Assembly: GCA_002841885.1 (NCBI GenBank)
Contig: PHBE01000010.1
Coordinates: forward strand, 62,001 to 126,000
Length of the DNA: 64,000 nucleotides
Direction of reading: 5' to 3'
Origin: Deltaproteobacteria bacterium HGW-Deltaproteobacteria-18
GTDB taxonomy: Bacteria > Desulfobacterota > Desulfovibrionia > Desulfovibrionales > Desulfomicrobiaceae
Below, piece after piece: positions 28,542-51,441 of this stretch (its first letter is position 1; every line of letters starts with the position of its first letter). Below the pieces are notes generated by a model. That model saw only the letters and a program-made list of their open reading frames with translations, did no database searches and was not told where the DNA came from. The translations under genes were made by a program, and so were the position numbers.

Positions 28542-29591
28542 ATGGTGAAGCGCGTCGGTCTGGTCGGGGTTACCGGCTACACGGGAATGGAATTGACCCG
28601 CATCCTGCTTGGCCACCCCGGCCTGCGTCTGACCCAGGTCACGTCGCGCAAGGAGGCCGGACAGCCCCTTCAGAAAATTTATCCTTTCCTGCAGGGCACG
28701 GAGCTTGGCGAACTTGAGATAACAGCTCCGGACAGCGCTTTTCTGGCCGCCAATTGCGACCTCGTCTTTCTGGCCGTGCCCCACTGCACGGCCATGGAAA
28801 TGGCGGCGGAGCTGCGCGGGCTTGGAGCCAGGGTTGTGGACTTGAGCGCTGATTTCCGTCTGCGCGACCATGAGGTTTACGAGAGCTGGTACCAGGTACC
28901 GCATACCCGGACCGCCCTCTTGACCGAAGCCGTTTACGGGCTGCCGGAGCTCTACGCCGCACGTATCGCCGGAGCCGGACTTGTCGCCAATCCCGGCTGC
29001 TATCCGACATCCGCCATCCTGGCCCTGTATCCGGCGCTGGCAGCGGGACTTATCTCGCCCGAAGATCTGGTCATCGATTCCAAGTCCGGAACCACCGGAG
29101 CAGGTCGCAAGGCAGGAGTAGGCACTCTTTTCTGCGAGGTTTCGGATACTTTCCGGGCTTACAACCTGACCAAACACCGCCACACCCCCGAGATCGAGCA
29201 GGAGCTCAGCCTTGCCGCCGGGCGGGAAATACGCCTCTCCTTCAATACACACCTGTTGCCCATCAATCGGGGTATCCTGACCACCGCCTACGCCAAACTT
29301 TCCCCCGGCGCGGATCTGGAGCAAATCCGGGCCTGCTACCAGGAGTTTTATGCGGGCAAGCGGTGGGTACGTCTTTTGCCCCAGGGATCCCTGCCTGAAA
29401 CCAGATGGGTGCGAGGCACCAATTTCTGCGATCTCGGGCTGGTCACGGACCCGCGTACGGACAGACTCATCGTGGTGTCGGCCATAGACAACCTTTGCCG
29501 TGGCGCTTCGGGCCAGGCCGTTGCCAATGCCAACCTCATGCTGGGCCTGGAAGAGGGTGTCGGTCTGCCTTTTGCGCCACTCATGCCTTAG
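28542..29591 (+). CDS. argC: N-acetyl-gamma-glutamyl-phosphate reductase
   Basis: 349 aa. NADP-binding GVTGYTGMELTRILLGHP at the N-terminus; catalytic cysteine in ANPGCYPTSAILAL; DSKSGTTGAGRK and KHRHTPEIEQEL follow. It reduces N-acetylglutamyl-phosphate to the semialdehyde in arginine synthesis. No other arg gene is adjacent. It ends 9 bases before the first EAL-HDOD gene. Confidence 0.96.
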   Translation: MVKRVGLVGVTGYTGMELTRILLGHPGLRLTQVTSRKEAGQPLQKIYPFLQGTELGELEITAPDSAFLAANCDLVFLAVPHCTAMEMAAELRGLGARVVDLSADFRLRDHEVYESWYQVPHTRTALLTEAVYGLPELYAARIAGAGLVANPGCYPTSAILALYPALAAGLISPEDLVIDSKSGTTGAGRKAGVGTLFCEVSDTFRAYNLTKHRHTPEIEQELSLAAGREIRLSFNTHLLPINRGILTTAYAKLSPGADLEQIRACYQEFYAGKRWVRLLPQGSLPETRWVRGTNFCDLGLVTDPRTDRLIVVSAIDNLCRGASGQAVANANLMLGLEEGVGLPFAPLMP

Positions 29592-29600
29592 AGGCCCTTA

Positions 29601-30848
29601 ATGACAGAACAGGTGCCTGAAAAGTTCTACGACAGCATATATGTCGCCAGACAGCCCATTTTCAATACCGAAATGAATATTTGGGGCTATGAGCTTCTAT
29701 TCAGGCACGGGGAGACCCAGTCCGCCGTGTTCACGGACGGCGACCAGGCCACGACCCAGGTCATCGCAGACGGCTTCGCATTGGGAGTCCGGGGCATGGG
29801 CAGCAAGATCAAGGCGCTGATCAATTTTCCGCGCAATGTCCTTCTCGGGCATGCGCCCTATGTGCTTCCTTCCGAGCGTTGCGTGGTGGAAATCCTGGAG
29901 ACGGTGCTGCCCGAGGATGATGTCATGGCGGCCTGCCGGGAGCTGAAGGCAAACGGCTATACCCTGGCCCTGGATGATTTTGTGGGGGATCCGGGTTTTG
30001 AGCCGCTGTGCGAAATAGCGGACATCATCAAGGTCGATATCCTGGGCAAGACGCCAGGCGAGGTCATGGCCATCGTCCAGAACCTCAAAGGGTACAAGGC
30101 CCGGCTTCTCGCCGAGAAAGTCGAGAGCATCGACATGTTCAACGTCTGCAAGCGTCTTGGCTTCGAATATTTTCAAGGGTATTTCTTCAGCAAGCCCGAG
30201 ATAGTCCCCGGCCGCAAGCTCTCCGCCAGCCAGAGCACCAAGATCAAGCTTTTGAAGGAACTCAATGAATCCGAGGCGGAGCTTTCCCGGCTGGTGGAAA
30301 TCATTCAGACGGATCTCTCCATTTCCTACCGCCTGCTCAAATACATCAATTCCGCCCGGTTCAGCCTGCGCGGCAAAATCGAATCCATCCAGCGCGCCGT
30401 GAACATGCTTGGCCATCAGAACCTGCGCCAATGGCTGCAGGTGGTCATCCTGTCCGATGTCAATTCCACGGACAAGGGCCAGGAGCTGGTCCGGATATCC
30501 GTCCTGCGCGGCCGTTTCCTCCAGCTTCTGGCCTCGGCCTGCCCCACTCCGTTTTCTCCGGACAGCATGTTCGTGATGGGCTTTTTTTCCCTGCTCGACG
30601 CCATCCTCGACCAGCAAATGGAGCAGGTTCTCGAAGAGATTTCCCTTGACCCGGACATCAAGGCCACCCTGGTTGACCCTCACGGCAAGCACTCTGTCTG
30701 GATCGAACTCTTGCATGAACTCGATCGCGGCAGCTGGGCCGATCTTGAGGAAAAGGCCGGCCAGATGGGTATTCCCATGGAGCTGATCGACAGCGTCGCC
30801 ATTGAGGCCGCGATGTGGACAGACGAAGTCATGGGAGGGGCGTCCTAG
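29601..30848 (+). CDS. EAL-HDOD domain signalling protein (copy 1)
   Basis: 415 aa. EAL-like domain (~10-215): VARQPIFNTEMNIWGYELLF, INFPRNVLL, YTLALDDFVGD, IIKVDILGKT and LLAEKVES. Several residues matching the catalytic set of c-di-GMP phosphodiesterases are present, but this YuxH/CdgJ subgroup is often inactive, so binding rather than hydrolysis is possible. HDOD domain (~220-410): SRLVEIIQTDLSISYRLLKY and the segment ending HQNLRQWL. Probably links c-di-GMP to motility or pili. The next gene is a clear paralog. Confidence 0.9.
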   Translation: MTEQVPEKFYDSIYVARQPIFNTEMNIWGYELLFRHGETQSAVFTDGDQATTQVIADGFALGVRGMGSKIKALINFPRNVLLGHAPYVLPSERCVVEILETVLPEDDVMAACRELKANGYTLALDDFVGDPGFEPLCEIADIIKVDILGKTPGEVMAIVQNLKGYKARLLAEKVESIDMFNVCKRLGFEYFQGYFFSKPEIVPGRKLSASQSTKIKLLKELNESEAELSRLVEIIQTDLSISYRLLKYINSARFSLRGKIESIQRAVNMLGHQNLRQWLQVVILSDVNSTDKGQELVRISVLRGRFLQLLASACPTPFSPDSMFVMGFFSLLDAILDQQMEQVLEEISLDPDIKATLVDPHGKHSVWIELLHELDRGSWADLEEKAGQMGIPMELIDSVAIEAAMWTDEVMGGAS

Positions 30849-44146: not shown

Positions 44147-44300
44147 CCGCGGTGGATTTTTTGCCGTGCGTATTTACAGAACGGGCAAATCCGGGCCAAG
44201 AGATGGGCCATGCCCCCCTGCGCGGCAAACCCGTGGTGGGTTTGGCCGGAGCCAGACGGGAATTCCCGGTGATGGTCACGAAAATCGGATCGGATCAGCC

Positions 44301-45608
44301 ATGAATAGCCCAGACGCCTACGACAGCGCCTCCGGACTGGCCGCTGTGCACATGTCCGTCGAGGATCTTTTGAGCTTCATGAACGATTTCCCGGCGCTGC
44401 TGTGGCGCATCGAAATCGCCAAATCCCGCATTGAATTCCTGAACAACAACTACATCGTCTCCAACGGTCTGGACGGAAAACTGCTGCTGAAGAACATTCG
44501 GTATCAGCAGGACGTGGTTGTACCGGAGGACGCATACCTGATCGGGGCCTTCATGGAGTCCGTGAAGAAGGGGAAGACGGCAGCCACCATTTTCCGTGCG
44601 CGGTGCGCGGAGAACAGGATCGCCTGGCTCAAGATCACCGGGGCGACAAACACCTGGGACCCCCGCTATTATTATGGATTCCTGCTCAATGTGACCGATA
44701 CCGTGGAGCAGATAAAGGCCATAATGGACAAGGACGTCAACATTCAGTCCCTCATCGACGACACGGACAATGCGGCATTGGTCCTGGATTATGATTCGCG
44801 CAAGGTCCTGTGTGTCAACGCCGCCGCATGCGACCTGTTCGAGCTGAATCGGGGGGAACTGTTGGGGTTAACCCTGAGCGATCTGTTCCGCGAATCCATG
44901 AAGACAGCGGTTGAGAACATGCTGGAGCAGGTTCTGCTGCTTCGCAAATGGAACGGGAAGCTGGATTTTTATCAAAGCGGCAAGCGCAGTTATTTCACCT
45001 CTGAGACCGTGGTCCGCCACATGTCCTGCGGCGGGAAGCGTCTTTTGCGTGTGAAGTTCGTAAATCCCAAGATCAGCCGGGAGAGATCGCGGCCGCGGCG
45101 CCTTTTTTCCGATGATTCGCGCCGGTTGCGGCTGATTCAGGATCTTGTGCTGGTCCGGGATGACATCGAGGCCATCATGCGGGTGGCTTTCGATTCCGCC
45201 CTTGCCTCCGAAAAATACGATGTGATCATGTTTTCCGACGTGCATGTGCGCAAGAATCAGGTCTATGTGTATTACGCAGGAAATCAGCCCATGCCGCTCG
45301 AACAGGGGCACAGGTTCGCCTATTCCGGAACCATTGCCGAGGACATAAGCCGTTTTCAGCTCTCCCATCTGACCGTGGACGACACCCAGGAGAGCATCAA
45401 GCCCATCGACTGGGCGCTTTTCGTGCCCCAGGGCATTCGCTCCTATTTGGCCAAGCCCTTTTTCAGCCGCGGCGCTCTGCGCACCGTTCTTATCGTGTGT
45501 TCGCGCAGGCCACATACCTTCTCGGGAGTCACTGTCGGCGACTTCGAAGATCTTCTGGAACCCATCAACGAAGCCGTGAAAATGTGGCGTCAGTCCGGGC
45601 GGCGCTGA
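44301..45608 (+). CDS. PAS-domain signalling protein without a recognised output domain
   Basis: 435 aa, soluble. Two PAS-like regions: ~15-130 (MNDFPALLWRIEIAKSRIEF; GFLLNVTDTVEQIKAIMD) and ~140-250 (NAALVLDYDSRKVLCVNAAA). The rest (~260-430) resembles a GAF-like fold (FSDVHVRKNQVYVYYAG; IKPIDWALFVPQGIRSYLAK). No kinase, GGDEF or DNA-binding domain is visible. ATG 44301 has only a weak ribosome site. A small hairpin (45613-45628) follows the stop. Confidence 0.75.
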   Translation: MNSPDAYDSASGLAAVHMSVEDLLSFMNDFPALLWRIEIAKSRIEFLNNNYIVSNGLDGKLLLKNIRYQQDVVVPEDAYLIGAFMESVKKGKTAATIFRARCAENRIAWLKITGATNTWDPRYYYGFLLNVTDTVEQIKAIMDKDVNIQSLIDDTDNAALVLDYDSRKVLCVNAAACDLFELNRGELLGLTLSDLFRESMKTAVENMLEQVLLLRKWNGKLDFYQSGKRSYFTSETVVRHMSCGGKRLLRVKFVNPKISRERSRPRRLFSDDSRRLRLIQDLVLVRDDIEAIMRVAFDSALASEKYDVIMFSDVHVRKNQVYVYYAGNQPMPLEQGHRFAYSGTIAEDISRFQLSHLTVDDTQESIKPIDWALFVPQGIRSYLAKPFFSRGALRTVLIVCSRRPHTFSGVTVGDFEDLLEPINEAVKMWRQSGRR

Positions 45609-45612
45609 ATTC

Positions 45613-45628
45613 ACCCGCCCTTGCGGGT
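45613..45628 (+). terminator. Small hairpin after the PAS gene
   Basis: ACCCGC and GCGGGT pair around a CCTT loop, followed by TCTATTT. A modest intrinsic terminator immediately ahead of the palindromic operator candidate. Confidence 0.5.
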
Positions 45629-45633
45629 TCTAT

Positions 45634-45646
45634 TTGGTTCTACCAA
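45634..45646. promoter_or_regulatory. Candidate FadR-type operator
   Basis: TTGGTTCTACCAA is a perfect palindrome and fits the GntR/FadR subfamily operator form TnGTnnnACnA exactly. It lies 130 bases upstream of the start of a FadR-type regulator gene, so autoregulation is a natural inference. A partial copy (TTTACCAAA) lies near 45750. Confidence 0.6.
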
Positions 45647-45775
45647 TAATCCGTTTTTGAGCGCATGTCCGGTGTCATGGCGCAACTGGCCGATTAAATT
45701 GCAGATGGCGTTGCCATGGAACGATATTTTCGTGTATGGGTTTACCAAATCAGCCTTTGAAGGAACCATTGCACG

Positions 45776-46498
45776 ATGGAAGAACATGGCCGCCTCTTGA
45801 ATCAGCTTGAGCTGGTTGTTCTTGAAAGGGGATTGCAACCCGGCGACAAGCTGCCGCCCGAAAGAGAACTTGCCGAGCAACTGCTCGTAAGCCGCAACAC
45901 GCTGCGCGGGCTTCTGCGTTCCCTCGACGCCCAGGGCCTGGTCACTATCAAGCCGGGCAGCGGTACCTTCCTGCGCACCAGACTGACCGGAATCGCGCAT
46001 CTTCACCATTCATCGCCACAGGCCGTAGCCGATCAGATCAAGGCCGCATTCCTGTTCCTGCCGCCCATTCTGGGCAAGGCCCTGCAAACCATCTCCGAGC
46101 CGCGCCTTAAAGATCTGCAAGCCGTCAACATCGCGCTCAGTCAGGCCATGTGCGACGGGGATCCCCGCAGGGTGTGGGCAGAGATCGCCCTTTTTTTCCG
46201 CCTCATCGCGCAAGAGACCGAAAACTATTTTCTGGTAAAGACCGTGGAGCAGATGTTCAGCATCGAACCATCCTTTGTTGCGCATTACTTCCAGACCGAT
46301 CGCGACATTCTCGAAGATATCTTTGCCGGGCATGTCAACATCCTGCAGGCGCTGCGAGAACGAAACGCCGGCAGGATCTCCGCGTTGACCGGGCAATACC
46401 TCTTGAGCATTTGCAGGGCCCTGGAAGCAGGCAACGAATTTTCTGTGTGGGATCCGGTATCGCACAGATCACATGAAGAGGATGCAGATGAAAGGTGA
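45776..46498 (+). CDS. GntR family (FadR subfamily) transcriptional regulator
   Basis: 240 aa. N-terminal GntR winged helix (GLQPGDKLPPERELAEQLLV, SRNTLRGLLRSLDAQGLV, KPGSGTFL) and a helical FCD-like effector domain with scattered histidines. FCD domains sense small organic acids, often through a bound metal. ATG 45776. The stop overlaps the next small gene. It likely controls the membrane/MBL/COG0523 genes downstream. Confidence 0.87.
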   Translation: MEEHGRLLNQLELVVLERGLQPGDKLPPERELAEQLLVSRNTLRGLLRSLDAQGLVTIKPGSGTFLRTRLTGIAHLHHSSPQAVADQIKAAFLFLPPILGKALQTISEPRLKDLQAVNIALSQAMCDGDPRRVWAEIALFFRLIAQETENYFLVKTVEQMFSIEPSFVAHYFQTDRDILEDIFAGHVNILQALRERNAGRISALTGQYLLSICRALEAGNEFSVWDPVSHRSHEEDADER

Positions 46499-46748
46499 AG
46501 TCCGGCTGAATCGAAGATTTTTCTTCAGGCAAAGCGTTGCCCGCATTCTCGATTCCGTATGTACTGCGTTCTGCAGCGAAGAATCGCATTCATCAATAAA
46601 TGAAGTGGAAAACGGGGTGAATTCATTATGGAGTGATTTCACTCCTGAAATGATCAAATTAGAGGCGGAGCGTCTTAGAGTTGATCCTGAAGACAAGAGT
46701 ACGCTTTTCAGCAGGATTCAGCAGGAAATGCTGGATGCGAAGAGCTGA
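46488..46748 (+). CDS. Small protein of unknown function
   Basis: 86 aa from ATG 46488, which has GAGG seven bases upstream; ATGs at 46473 and 46482 are alternatives. It overlaps the regulator's 3' end. The N-terminus has RRFFFRQ, reminiscent of twin-arginine proteins but without a hydrophobic stretch; the C-terminal part is acidic and helical (FTPEMIKLEAERLRVDPEDK). I do not recognise a family. Codon use is more AT-rich than neighbouring genes, hinting at relaxed selection or foreign origin. Confidence 0.6.
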   Translation: MKGEVRLNRRFFFRQSVARILDSVCTAFCSEESHSSINEVENGVNSLWSDFTPEMIKLEAERLRVDPEDKSTLFSRIQQEMLDAKS

Positions 46749-46812
46749 AACATTGATTTTAAAACAAGAGATGTTTTGCAGGTGAATGCATGGATTGTTG
46801 AGACCGTATAAA

Positions 46813-46856
46813 AAAGAGTCGGGGCGAATTGTTGGTCGCAGGACGCCCCGCTCTTT
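46813..46856 (+). promoter_or_regulatory. Leader hairpin before the membrane protein gene
   Basis: AAAGAGTCGGGGCG (46813-46826) pairs with CGCCCCGCTCTTT (46844-46856) with one mismatch, loop 17 bases. It lies 39 bases before the ATG of the membrane protein and has a short T run at its end, so it could act as a terminator or attenuator between the regulator and the structural genes. Confidence 0.55.
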
Positions 46857-46894
46857 ACCTATACCACAAATTCCAACCCAACCAAGGAGGACTT

Positions 46895-47731
46895 ATGGAG
46901 AGGTACGGTGAAAATTATCTTGAGGAGCGAAAGCTTGTCAAGCGCTGGCCACAGCCGATTCCGGCGCTTGTCGCCCTCGTGCTGACGCTGGTGGTGTTTT
47001 ACGGCTCGTGGTGGATCTTTCAGGATCCAAGAGGACTGATGCGCATGTACACGCCGTACGTGGGTTACATGTATACCCGCTGGTGGCTGATCATGCTCAT
47101 CTGGATGGTCTACATCTTCAATTTCTGGCCTTTCAGGCGCAAATGGCTCGAAACCACCCACCCCGCCATCAAGGGGGCTGTCTTGACCGGCATCTCGGTG
47201 GTCATCCTCTGGGTGCTGATCAAGGGGTTCTTTGAATATTTTCTGGGCAATTTCGGGCTGGCGTATTTCAATCCCGAGCAGTTGACCAAGCTTCCGGGCA
47301 TCACCGAATTTTTCGCCATCGAATACGCGGCCCTGGCCTGCCTCATGTTCGCGGCCATCGCCTCCTGGCTCAGCCCGGCTTGGGTAGTGGCTTTGGAAGA
47401 AGTGCCCTGGAAGGGGATGAATCAGCCGGGCAAAGGCATCAGCATCCTGGTCATGACCTTTTTCCTGAGCACCCTGGTCTATTTCGTGACCATGCATTCG
47501 CACATGGGCATACTCTATTACCCGTGGCAGTACTTCACCTCCATCGCGCCGCCCTACTGGGAGCAGTTCGCCGACACCGTGTCCGGAAACTTCCATGTAT
47601 CATGGATCATGTGCGCGACCGTGACCGTGTGGATGGTGGAGACGATCTGGGAGCGTTTTCCCTTCAAACTGATAAAGACCAACTGGCTGCGCCGGGTGGT
47701 TGCGTTTTTCGGCATCATCGCCATTGCCTAG
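46895..47731 (+). CDS. Polytopic membrane protein, N-terminal part up to an in-frame TAG
   Basis: 278 aa to the TAG at 47729-47731; seven or so helices, rich in Trp/Tyr (VVFYGSWWIFQDP, YVGYMYTRWWLIMLIWMVY) and with a MHSHMGILYYPWQYF loop. AAGGAGG precedes ATG 46895. The final helix breaks off mid-way (VVAFFGIIAIA, then TAG), and the next codons in the same frame continue it (AMHLFLYFAQEL), so this is very probably the first three-fifths of one ~470-residue protein. Family not recognised. Confidence 0.75.
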   Translation: MERYGENYLEERKLVKRWPQPIPALVALVLTLVVFYGSWWIFQDPRGLMRMYTPYVGYMYTRWWLIMLIWMVYIFNFWPFRRKWLETTHPAIKGAVLTGISVVILWVLIKGFFEYFLGNFGLAYFNPEQLTKLPGITEFFAIEYAALACLMFAAIASWLSPAWVVALEEVPWKGMNQPGKGISILVMTFFLSTLVYFVTMHSHMGILYYPWQYFTSIAPPYWEQFADTVSGNFHVSWIMCATVTVWMVETIWERFPFKLIKTNWLRRVVAFFGIIAIA

Positions 47732-47734
47732 GCC

Positions 47735-48307
47735 ATGCATCTCTTTTTGTACTTTGCCCAAGAGCTGACCTGGGGTGAAGCCATCCGCGGCACACGCCGT
47801 GATTTCGCGCCGGACTGGCGCTGGCTGCATGTCGGTGAGATGGCCGTCTTCTGGCTCGTTCCGGCCCTTTTCATCAATTTCTACTGCGACAATTGGCCCC
47901 GGCGCTTCAGCCTGCCCGTCAACGTGCTCGTGCGCACGGTGGTGAGCATCGCGGCCGCGATCGTGCTCTATCTCTTCTACTATTCGACTTCGCACCTTTT
48001 CCTGGGAACGCAAAAGGGATTTTCCCATCCTCAGCAGTTCCCCATGATCCCGACCATCTGGCTGATCAACATCTGGCTGGTGCATCACTGGTTTATGGAC
48101 AACTGGCCGGCCTGGAAGATGGTCCCCAAGACCGCGACCGAGATCGCCGAGGACCATGCCGCCGAACAGGCGCAGCTCGACGGCATGCGCTGGAGTTCAG
48201 CCCAGGGGCTGGGTCTTGGAGTGGGTCTGGCCTGCGGCGTGGCGGTGTACTTCATTGTGTTGAAGGCGCTGCCGCTGGCGTATCAATCCATCACCATCAT
48301 CAAATAG
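47735..48307 (+). CDS. Polytopic membrane protein, C-terminal part after the in-frame TAG
   Basis: 190 aa from ATG 47735, one codon after the TAG and in the same frame as the preceding segment. No ribosome binding site precedes this ATG. Four to five hydrophobic segments (AVFWLVPALFINFYCDNWP, WLINIWLVHHWFMDNWPAW, GVGLACGVAVYFIVL). It makes structural sense only as the rest of the preceding protein, either by readthrough, re-initiation, or because the TAG is a recent mutation or sequencing error. Confidence 0.7.
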   Translation: MHLFLYFAQELTWGEAIRGTRRDFAPDWRWLHVGEMAVFWLVPALFINFYCDNWPRRFSLPVNVLVRTVVSIAAAIVLYLFYYSTSHLFLGTQKGFSHPQQFPMIPTIWLINIWLVHHWFMDNWPAWKMVPKTATEIAEDHAAEQAQLDGMRWSSAQGLGLGVGLACGVAVYFIVLKALPLAYQSITIIK

Positions 48308-48328
48308 CCGGCCGGGCAGGGAGTAATC

Positions 48329-49504
48329 ATGAGTAACGATCAGAACACGTTCAGCCGACGCAATTTCTTCAAGGGGGCCGCGATGGGGGCGCTGGGCGGG
48401 ACCATTCTCGCCATGGGCGCCTATTCGTACAGCCCGTGGCGCAAGTCCTTCCTTTCCACAGCCCAGCGCAAGATGGTCGATATCGGGGTCTGCAAGAACA
48501 TTAAAGTCACGAACATTTCCGAGACGAGCTGGTTCAGCAACGCCGACCTCATGGGCGACATTAAGGGCGCTGGCGGACTTTTGGTCAACCAGTACAGTTA
48601 CAACTGGCCGCCCTTTGCCGACGGCACGGGTCTTGGCAAAGGCAGCTACGAGTCAGGCATCGCCAAGATCAAGCATCTTCTGCCCCACGACCTCGAAGAG
48701 GCCTGGGCCATCACCGAGAAGCTGGCGGTTCATCCCGAGAACGCCGGAGGTTTCGCCTGCCTCATCGAGGTCGAGGATATGGACGGGACCAAGCACAAAT
48801 ACCTACTCGACAGTGGATGGTCCTACAAATGGATGGATGAGTGCTTCAAGCGCGAGGGCATCGACGTGATGCTGAAGAACCGGGAGATCGAGGCCCTTTT
48901 CATCTCGCATGAGCATTTCGATCACTACTGGGGCGTTCCGGTCACGTTCAAGTACGACCCGACCATCACCACCTATGTCCCGGACGGTTTTTACAAAGAA
49001 GGGCTGCAATACCTCAAGGACGCCGGGCACCAGGGCAAGGTGGTCACGGTCAAGGCCGGGCTCCAGCACGTGTCTCCGGGGTTCGCCTCCTATGTGTTCG
49101 GCGTCCCGATCATTTGTCGGGTCTACGGCGAGCAGTCCCTGTACTTCAACGTCAAGGACGTTGGCCTCGTCAGCGTGACCGGGTGCTGCCATCAGAGCAT
49201 CATCCAATTCGCGGAGACCGCCTATCAGGAAATCCAGTATGAAAATGATCAGCTTCACGGAATTTACGGAGGGTTGCACATCTCGCCCTTTGAAGACTGG
49301 GATCCCAAATACGACGATCTGGTCATTTCCCTGGGCAAATACGGCTTCCAGAAAATAGGATGCAACCATTGCACCGGCATTCTGTGCGCCAAGAAGTTTG
49401 TCGAGGCCGGATATCCGGTGATCAAGGGAACGGCCCGCTTCGGTTCGAAGGATCCGGTGTACCTGGGCAACGGTGACAAGATCGGATTTGGCGTGGACGT
49501 CTAA
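48329..49504 (+). CDS. Tat-exported metallo-beta-lactamase-fold protein (COG1237-like)
   Basis: 391 aa. N-terminal SRRNFFKGAAMGALGG followed by a hydrophobic run is a twin-arginine signal, so it is exported folded. SHEHFDHYWG is the HxHxDH metal site; TGCCHQSIIQ, YGGLHISPF and GCNHCTGILC are the later ligand segments of the COG1237 group (often annotated as a dihydropterin-ribofuranosylaminobenzene-phosphate synthase, usually without proof). Catalysis unknown. GGGAG site before ATG 48329, 21 bases after the membrane protein. Confidence 0.87.
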   Translation: MSNDQNTFSRRNFFKGAAMGALGGTILAMGAYSYSPWRKSFLSTAQRKMVDIGVCKNIKVTNISETSWFSNADLMGDIKGAGGLLVNQYSYNWPPFADGTGLGKGSYESGIAKIKHLLPHDLEEAWAITEKLAVHPENAGGFACLIEVEDMDGTKHKYLLDSGWSYKWMDECFKREGIDVMLKNREIEALFISHEHFDHYWGVPVTFKYDPTITTYVPDGFYKEGLQYLKDAGHQGKVVTVKAGLQHVSPGFASYVFGVPIICRVYGEQSLYFNVKDVGLVSVTGCCHQSIIQFAETAYQEIQYENDQLHGIYGGLHISPFEDWDPKYDDLVISLGKYGFQKIGCNHCTGILCAKKFVEAGYPVIKGTARFGSKDPVYLGNGDKIGFGVDV

Positions 49505-49518
49505 CCGCAGGAAAAATC

Positions 49519-51441
49519 ATGAATCTCTCCGTCGGCGGCCGGTTTGGCCTGTCGCCGACGGACACAGGAGCCGGCTGCCAGCCGCGAGTCGTGCACGGAG
49601 TTGCCATGCTGTTTGACGCTTTTTTGCCGGGGGATTTGTTCTTGCATGCCCCGCAGGGCATGCAGGAGCTCTTCAGGGTCATCGTGATGCGCACGAATTT
49701 CGTGCCGGTGTTGCGCCATGTCATCGGATGGCGCGGCCTGAAACAGCTGACCGGACCCGTGGAATGCTGGACCGCCAGGATCCGGGACTTCGACGGCGTG
49801 TTCGGGATCTTTTTTGGTGGCGTGGTCGAGGGCCCGGATTGGGTCCGGGGGATTTTTCGCCTGCATTATTTTCCACACCCGGACGAGGAACTGGTCGAGC
49901 GCTGTTCGCTGCAGGCCGCGGCCTTGAGCCAGTCCGGGGACTACATGGCCCGCGTGCGCGATTTCATGACCGATCCGGGTTTCGCGGATCTTTTCCACAT
50001 CGCGGAATTGACCATGAGCGTCGATGCCGAAAAGAAGAGCCTGACGCTGAGCCTTGAAGGGCTTGAGGCGCTGCGCGTTGTTTGCGAGGCGGGCGTGGCT
50101 GTTGAACGGGACGGGCAAAGGATCACCCTGATCAAGTCAGGAGGGCTTGATTCAAATTTTCCGGCCTTTGCCACGGCATGCGGATTTTTTGATGTTCTGG
50201 CCGCGTCCATGACCTTCAATCTCGATCAGCCGCCGGCAGGCTTGCGCCTGACCCGTGCGCCCGGTTTTGAACTCAGGCGTTCCCTTCAGGGACAGCTTTT
50301 CGAGTCGGCCGTGGATGACAATTCAAGGATGCGCCTGACCATCCAATACGGGGAAGGGGCGCCCGGTAAAGACGACGCGCCACGAAGCTCAGAGTGGCGC
50401 ACTGTTCATGACTGGTCCCTTGGCGAGCCGGTTCCGGAGGCGTTCGCGGACAGCCCGTGGTGGAGTGCCCATCGTCTGCAGGGGGCGTCCAGTATCGACA
50501 AAAAGGCTCTGGGTGTGGACGAGAGACCTCCGCTTATCGTGCTGACGGGCTTTCTGGGGTCGGGCAAGACCAGCTTTCTGAAACATTTCATCGAATACCA
50601 GACCCAGCGCAGCCGTTTCGTGGCGGTGATCCAGAACGAGATCGGGGCCGTGGGCCTGGATGGCAAGCTGCTGGACTACACCGTGACCGAGATCGACGAG
50701 GGCTGCGTTTGCTGCAGTCTGTCCGGCAGCCTGAACCGGGCCGTGAAGGGCATCGTGTCGTCCTTTGACCCTGATTTTATCATCGTCGAGACCACGGGTC
50801 TGGCAAATCCTTTCAACATGCTGGAGGAAATGGAGGAGCTGACGGAGCTTGCCCGCTTTGACTGCATCCTGACCGTTGTGGACGCGCCGAACGCGGAGAG
50901 GACCCTGGCCGAGCATCCCATCGCCGTGGATCAGATTCGGGCGGCGGATATAGTAATGCTCAACAAACAGGATCTCGTCTGCGCGGAGCGCCTTGAGGCC
51001 GTCACGCAGATGGTGAGAGGGCACAATCCGCACGCGCCCGTGTTTTCTGCCGTGAACGGCGAACTTCACCCGGCCCTGGTCCTGGATGTGGAGGACCGCC
51101 TGCACGGGACTTTATCGGACAAGGGACGCAAGCTGCATCACCTTTCGCATATGCACGAAGGACTTTGGGCCAAAAGCGTCCGGCTTGAGCGCCCTCTTGA
51201 GCGCGAGGCGTTCCTTGAAACCGTGGACCGCCTGCCTGCTTCCATCTTTCGCGCCAAGGGAGTCATCGAATTCGCGGATTCCCCGCAGGCCCTGCTGTTT
51301 CAATACGTCGGCGGGCGCTACGAGATCTCGATCTTTCCCGAACAGTCCGATCCGGACCGATTCGTGACCCTCATCGGCCAGGGCGGCGACCCCCAAGGCG
51401 CGGCCGAGGCCATAAAGGCCCTGGATGCGCCCGTGGCCTGA
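49519..51441 (+). CDS. COG0523 (CobW-like) GTPase with large N-terminal domain
   Basis: 640 aa. Residues ~340-640 are the G3E GTPase: LTGFLGSGKTSFLKHFI, DEGCVCCSLSGSL (the CxCC metal site at about residue 395), FIIVETTGLANP and VMLNKQDL. COG0523 proteins deliver Zn, Co or Fe to client enzymes. The first ~330 residues are not a domain I recognise (HPDEELVERCSLQAAALS; TMSVDAEKKSLTLSLEG) and about double the usual length. It starts 15 bases after the MBL-fold gene; supplying metal to that enzyme before export is an attractive inference. Confidence 0.85.
   Translation: MNLSVGGRFGLSPTDTGAGCQPRVVHGVAMLFDAFLPGDLFLHAPQGMQELFRVIVMRTNFVPVLRHVIGWRGLKQLTGPVECWTARIRDFDGVFGIFFGGVVEGPDWVRGIFRLHYFPHPDEELVERCSLQAAALSQSGDYMARVRDFMTDPGFADLFHIAELTMSVDAEKKSLTLSLEGLEALRVVCEAGVAVERDGQRITLIKSGGLDSNFPAFATACGFFDVLAASMTFNLDQPPAGLRLTRAPGFELRRSLQGQLFESAVDDNSRMRLTIQYGEGAPGKDDAPRSSEWRTVHDWSLGEPVPEAFADSPWWSAHRLQGASSIDKKALGVDERPPLIVLTGFLGSGKTSFLKHFIEYQTQRSRFVAVIQNEIGAVGLDGKLLDYTVTEIDEGCVCCSLSGSLNRAVKGIVSSFDPDFIIVETTGLANPFNMLEEMEELTELARFDCILTVVDAPNAERTLAEHPIAVDQIRAADIVMLNKQDLVCAERLEAVTQMVRGHNPHAPVFSAVNGELHPALVLDVEDRLHGTLSDKGRKLHHLSHMHEGLWAKSVRLERPLEREAFLETVDRLPASIFRAKGVIEFADSPQALLFQYVGGRYEISIFPEQSDPDRFVTLIGQGGDPQGAAEAIKALDAPVA

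Follow-up and report, generated by a model that had tools for sequence, protein, structure and literature searches.

The gene at positions 46895-48307 (+) of the window, by which we mean the whole stretch of 64,000 nucleotides analysed here (G000:C10:62001-126000), very probably carries an ordinary recent nonsense mutation, or else a sequencing error, that turns TGG into TAG (Trp279 to stop) in a conserved membrane-protein gene. Under this reading, a single TGG-to-TAG transition would interrupt a conserved 470-residue gene in a Desulfomicrobium genome, a 37-contig draft of 3.99 Mb that is 99.97% complete. If the TAG is real, translation would stop midway through a transmembrane helix, leaving a truncated product of 278 residues, and the most likely consequence would be loss of the membrane protein's function.

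A single reading frame interrupted at codon 279

The disrupted gene forms a single frame of 470 codons interrupted solely by the TAG at 47729-47731 (+), which is codon 279. Translation of 46895-48304 gives 278 codons, the TAG, and then 191 codons starting with Ala (GCC) and Met (ATG), followed by the normal terminator, a second TAG, at 48305-48307 (+); no further stop or frameshift was found when the translation of 46895-48307 was read. The first ATG is preceded by a good ribosome site, the Shine-Dalgarno sequence AAGGAGGA at 46884-46891 (+), read directly from the DNA. The first ATG past the in-frame stop (47735-47737, +; TAG GCC ATG), a candidate re-initiation codon, has no properly placed ribosome site, the sole purine-rich bases nearby being an AGG 2 nt upstream, a spacing that is too short. 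In an AlphaFold2 model built from the 41 sequences of alignment A2 (pLDDT 73, pTM 0.77), residue 279 is positioned in the middle of a predicted 31-residue helix formed by residues 263-293, so that a break at this point would destroy a membrane helix.

These observations agree with the sequence-only reading, which had described two same-frame segments parted only by TAG and GCC, a second ATG lacking a ribosome site, and a TAG in the middle of a hydrophobic helix. Its further proposal, that the ancestral protein was one chain of about 470 residues, is matched by all 57 intact homologues, which are unbroken across codon 279; the two segments therefore represent one gene rather than the chance alignment of two ORFs.

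Codon 279 in the homologues

In the three nearest relatives (G001, G002 and G012; 96-97% protein identity, all unbroken) the codon-279 setting reads GCCATTGCC-TGG-GCCATGCA, and the window gene has TAG in place of TGG within an otherwise near-identical setting. The 57 intact homologues come partly from the genus and partly from scanning public genomes, with three frameshifted homologues and one fragment omitted, and with one sequence counted twice (G015 and L053 are identical). Their residue at this codon is W in 18, L in 15, F in 15, V in 8 and I in 1, and a stop in none, leaving the window gene as the only one of 58 sequences with TAG. From the alignment, the change reads as a single TGG-to-TAG transition at a position that is variable yet always hydrophobic. 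The sequence-only reading had proposed aligning orthologues at this codon, and the alignment returns Trp (TGG) or another hydrophobic residue in an unbroken chain; orthologues that are naturally two proteins at codon 279, named there as a finding that would refute it, were sought among the homologues and none was found.

The premature stop removes codons 280-470, and the homologue alignment has many invariant columns beyond codon 279. The gene is present in 8 of 22 family genomes and missing from 9 of the 17 of good quality, which indicates that it is dispensable in this group. A second TAG, in a paralogue on G001:C8, was considered as another mid-gene stop and rejected, as it is the ordinary C-terminal stop of that paralogue.

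Age of the lesion: mutation or sequencing error

Comparison of four near relatives assigned 18 silent changes and 1 replacement to the window lineage before the TAG, and 18 silent changes and 4 replacements after it. The neutral expectation is about 73% replacement, against 4 of 22 changes observed after the TAG (P ~1e-7), and the post-TAG ratio is not significantly different from the 2:33 counted in the other lineages (Fisher P 0.19). The change counts in the 3' part disfavour a neutral phase exceeding about 20% of the branch. Judged from these substitutions, the post-TAG part was under strong purifying selection along the window lineage until recently, and the lesion is thus recent, or an error.

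Between these two branches, the sequenced strain is likelier to have undergone a recent nonsense mutation than the draft assembly is to contain a wrong base, and the TAG is probably present in the living strain. The error branch, in which the strain's gene is intact, forms part of the best explanation and holds a lesser, though real, share of its probability: the assembly is a draft in 37 contigs, and the lesion is isolated, with no decay elsewhere in the gene. Set against it, the membrane-protein gene has the sole mid-gene stop among the window genes that could be paired with a G001 or G002 counterpart, a comparison based on an approximate filter for coding-like codon-position bias with flagged frames judged by inspection; the lack of a second such stop among the compared genes makes the sequence look good. 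In addition, real nonsense alleles are common in dispensable genes. The other flagged frames were rejected as disrupted genes, each either overlapping a real gene that lies in a different frame or on the opposite strand, or having its stop before the real start. A Dcm hotspot was also considered and rejected: the change CCTGG to CCTAG would suit deamination at CCWGG, and the genome has no match to TIGR00675 (C5-cytosine methyltransferase).

Readthrough and re-initiation

A functional read-through gene would show identical purifying selection in its 3' part, and the unrelaxed selection there, together with the G that follows the UAG, can be read in favour of natural or programmed readthrough yielding enough full-length protein. 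We nevertheless consider this very improbable. The TAG occurs in no relative, which argues against a conserved programmed signal, and the 100 nt past the TAG barely outfold their shuffles (z -1.3), while relatives with TGG fold similarly or more strongly.

Termination followed by re-initiation at ATG 47735, with the two fragments associating to form a functional protein, has a slightly better but still very small chance of being correct. The ATG lies only 3 nt past the stop, and the family does include a natural gene fission: in Rhodospira/Roseospira (L064, L067, L068), from codon ~432 on, a small ORF of about 40 residues, with its own ribosome site, encodes the last membrane helix. The TGA at codon 432 in L064 was examined as a nonsense mutation and rejected, being the natural end ahead of the separate last-helix ORF. 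That fission, however, lies elsewhere, between helices, whereas the break in the window gene falls within helix 263-293 such that neither fragment keeps a whole helix there. A mid-helix break combined with the missing ribosome site makes two working halves unlikely.

A working full-length or two-part protein produced by efficient TAG readthrough or by stop-coupled re-initiation within a transmembrane helix, with no known suppressor, is most unlikely. The sequence-only reading had listed readthrough or re-initiation as an option; we found no positive evidence for it.

TAG as a stop codon in this genome

The least credible account is that TAG is decoded as a residue, either pyrrolysine or another amino acid inserted by an amber suppressor tRNA. 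In its favour, the frame after the TAG is open and conserved. The gene itself, however, ends at TAG, as do its three nearest relatives at the identical position, and this conserved terminator indicates that TAG is still read as stop in the membrane-protein gene. Window ORFs 28542-29591 and 29601-30848 likewise end in TAG, with their G001 and G002 homologues ending at matching positions, in line with the earlier remark that TAG ends ordinary genes here. Relatives carry Trp, Leu, Phe or Val at what is a hydrophobic membrane position, and pyrrolysine is hardly known outside methylamine methyltransferases and occurs in few deltaproteobacteria (PMC3941956).

The decoding machinery was also searched for across the genome, as the sequence-only reading had suggested. 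PylS (TIGR02367) has no match in the 99.97% complete genome, using a cut-off that was passed in exactly 1 of 14 control genomes, a set including Methanosarcina acetivorans. PylB (TIGR03910) gives nothing above its cut-off genome-wide, the matches being paralogues that reach at best 66.6 bits where 348.2 bits are required. The assembly contains no tRNA with a CUA anticodon among 60 tRNA matches, as assigned by ARAGORN, which left two matches unread, one a tRNA-Asp-like remnant and the other a tRNA-Val (UAC) truncated where its contig stops; the test has a small gap in that a few tRNAs typical of rRNA operons (Ile-GAT, Ala-TGC) seem to be missing from the draft. The single tRNA-Trp has a normal CCA anticodon. 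A 31.5-bit tRNA-like match at G000:C12:98386 was considered as a CUA tRNA and rejected, its anticodon loop reading GUC; this match is the tRNA-Asp-like remnant.

These results contradict the pyrrolysine option of the sequence-only reading and uphold its default of a nonsense mutation or sequencing error, for which the orthologues supply the sense codon.

Two further features came to light among the tRNA genes. The tRNA-Asp-like remnant (L127 137-206; G000:C12:98386-98455, minus strand) retains an intact 3' half with a terminator-like hairpin after it, and looks like the attachment site of an integrated element. A tRNA-Gly/Cys cluster is found in similar copies in two places, on C1 (L083, L091, L100) and on contig C31 (L092, L093, L099).

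The membrane-protein family and its operon

The two ORFs should be annotated as a single disrupted gene, and neither as a pair of proteins nor as a recoded gene. Beyond annotation the lesion has little import, and the more useful by-product is the unnamed polytopic membrane family itself, which resides in a conserved operon. The membrane protein matched no Pfam or NCBIfam family, has no meaningful PDB relative by sequence, and gave no meaningful match in a fold search; literature searches supplied background only. Homologues in Desulfobacterota, some Alphaproteobacteria and other phyla share 57-87% identity with it.

The upstream partners in the window are a PAS-domain protein (44166-45608, +) and a GntR/FCD regulator (45776-46498, +), which is intact, and the downstream partners are an intact Tat-signal metallo-beta-lactamase (MBL)-fold protein (48329-49504, +) and a CobW-type GTPase protein with a long N-terminal extension (49519-51441, +); all are open over their length. 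The order PAS, GntR, polytopic membrane protein, Tat-MBL, CobW is conserved between window positions 44166-51441 and loci L013-L076, an operon widespread in these same phyla, with the membrane and MBL genes side by side at almost all loci and CobW next at most of them. Solved chains matched by the MBL protein in a sequence search are 7dck, 2p4z and 3h3e, and a reasonable guess is that the membrane protein acts as the partner of an exported metal-dependent hydrolase. A distant membrane-protein paralogue (~28% identity) adjoins a distant MBL paralogue (37%) at L022 (G012:C1:1031380-1032531) and L023 (G001:C8:102049-103212), which suggests that the membrane/MBL pair duplicates or moves together.

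Comparison with known systems

Pyrrolysine recoding by pylTSBCD, as in Bilophila wadsworthia and the Olavius algarvensis endosymbiont (PMC3941956), resembles the window gene in having conserved coding sequence beyond an in-frame TAG and in having as host a deltaproteobacterium in the older sense. The window gene differs in that neither PylS nor a CUA tRNA, nor PylB above cut-off, was found in its genome, and in that it is not a methylamine methyltransferase, has homologues that are hydrophobic at codon 279 and is itself terminated by TAG. The Rhodospira/Roseospira fission likewise distributes the same membrane family over two ORFs, but it splits the protein near codon 432 between helices, whereas the break in the window gene, at codon 279, lies within one. 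The closest likeness is to a recent bacterial pseudogene, a nonsense allele in a conserved operon, with which the window gene shares a single-base stop, intact orthologues, the lack of downstream decay and intact neighbours, and from which, as far as the DNA can tell, it does not evidently differ.
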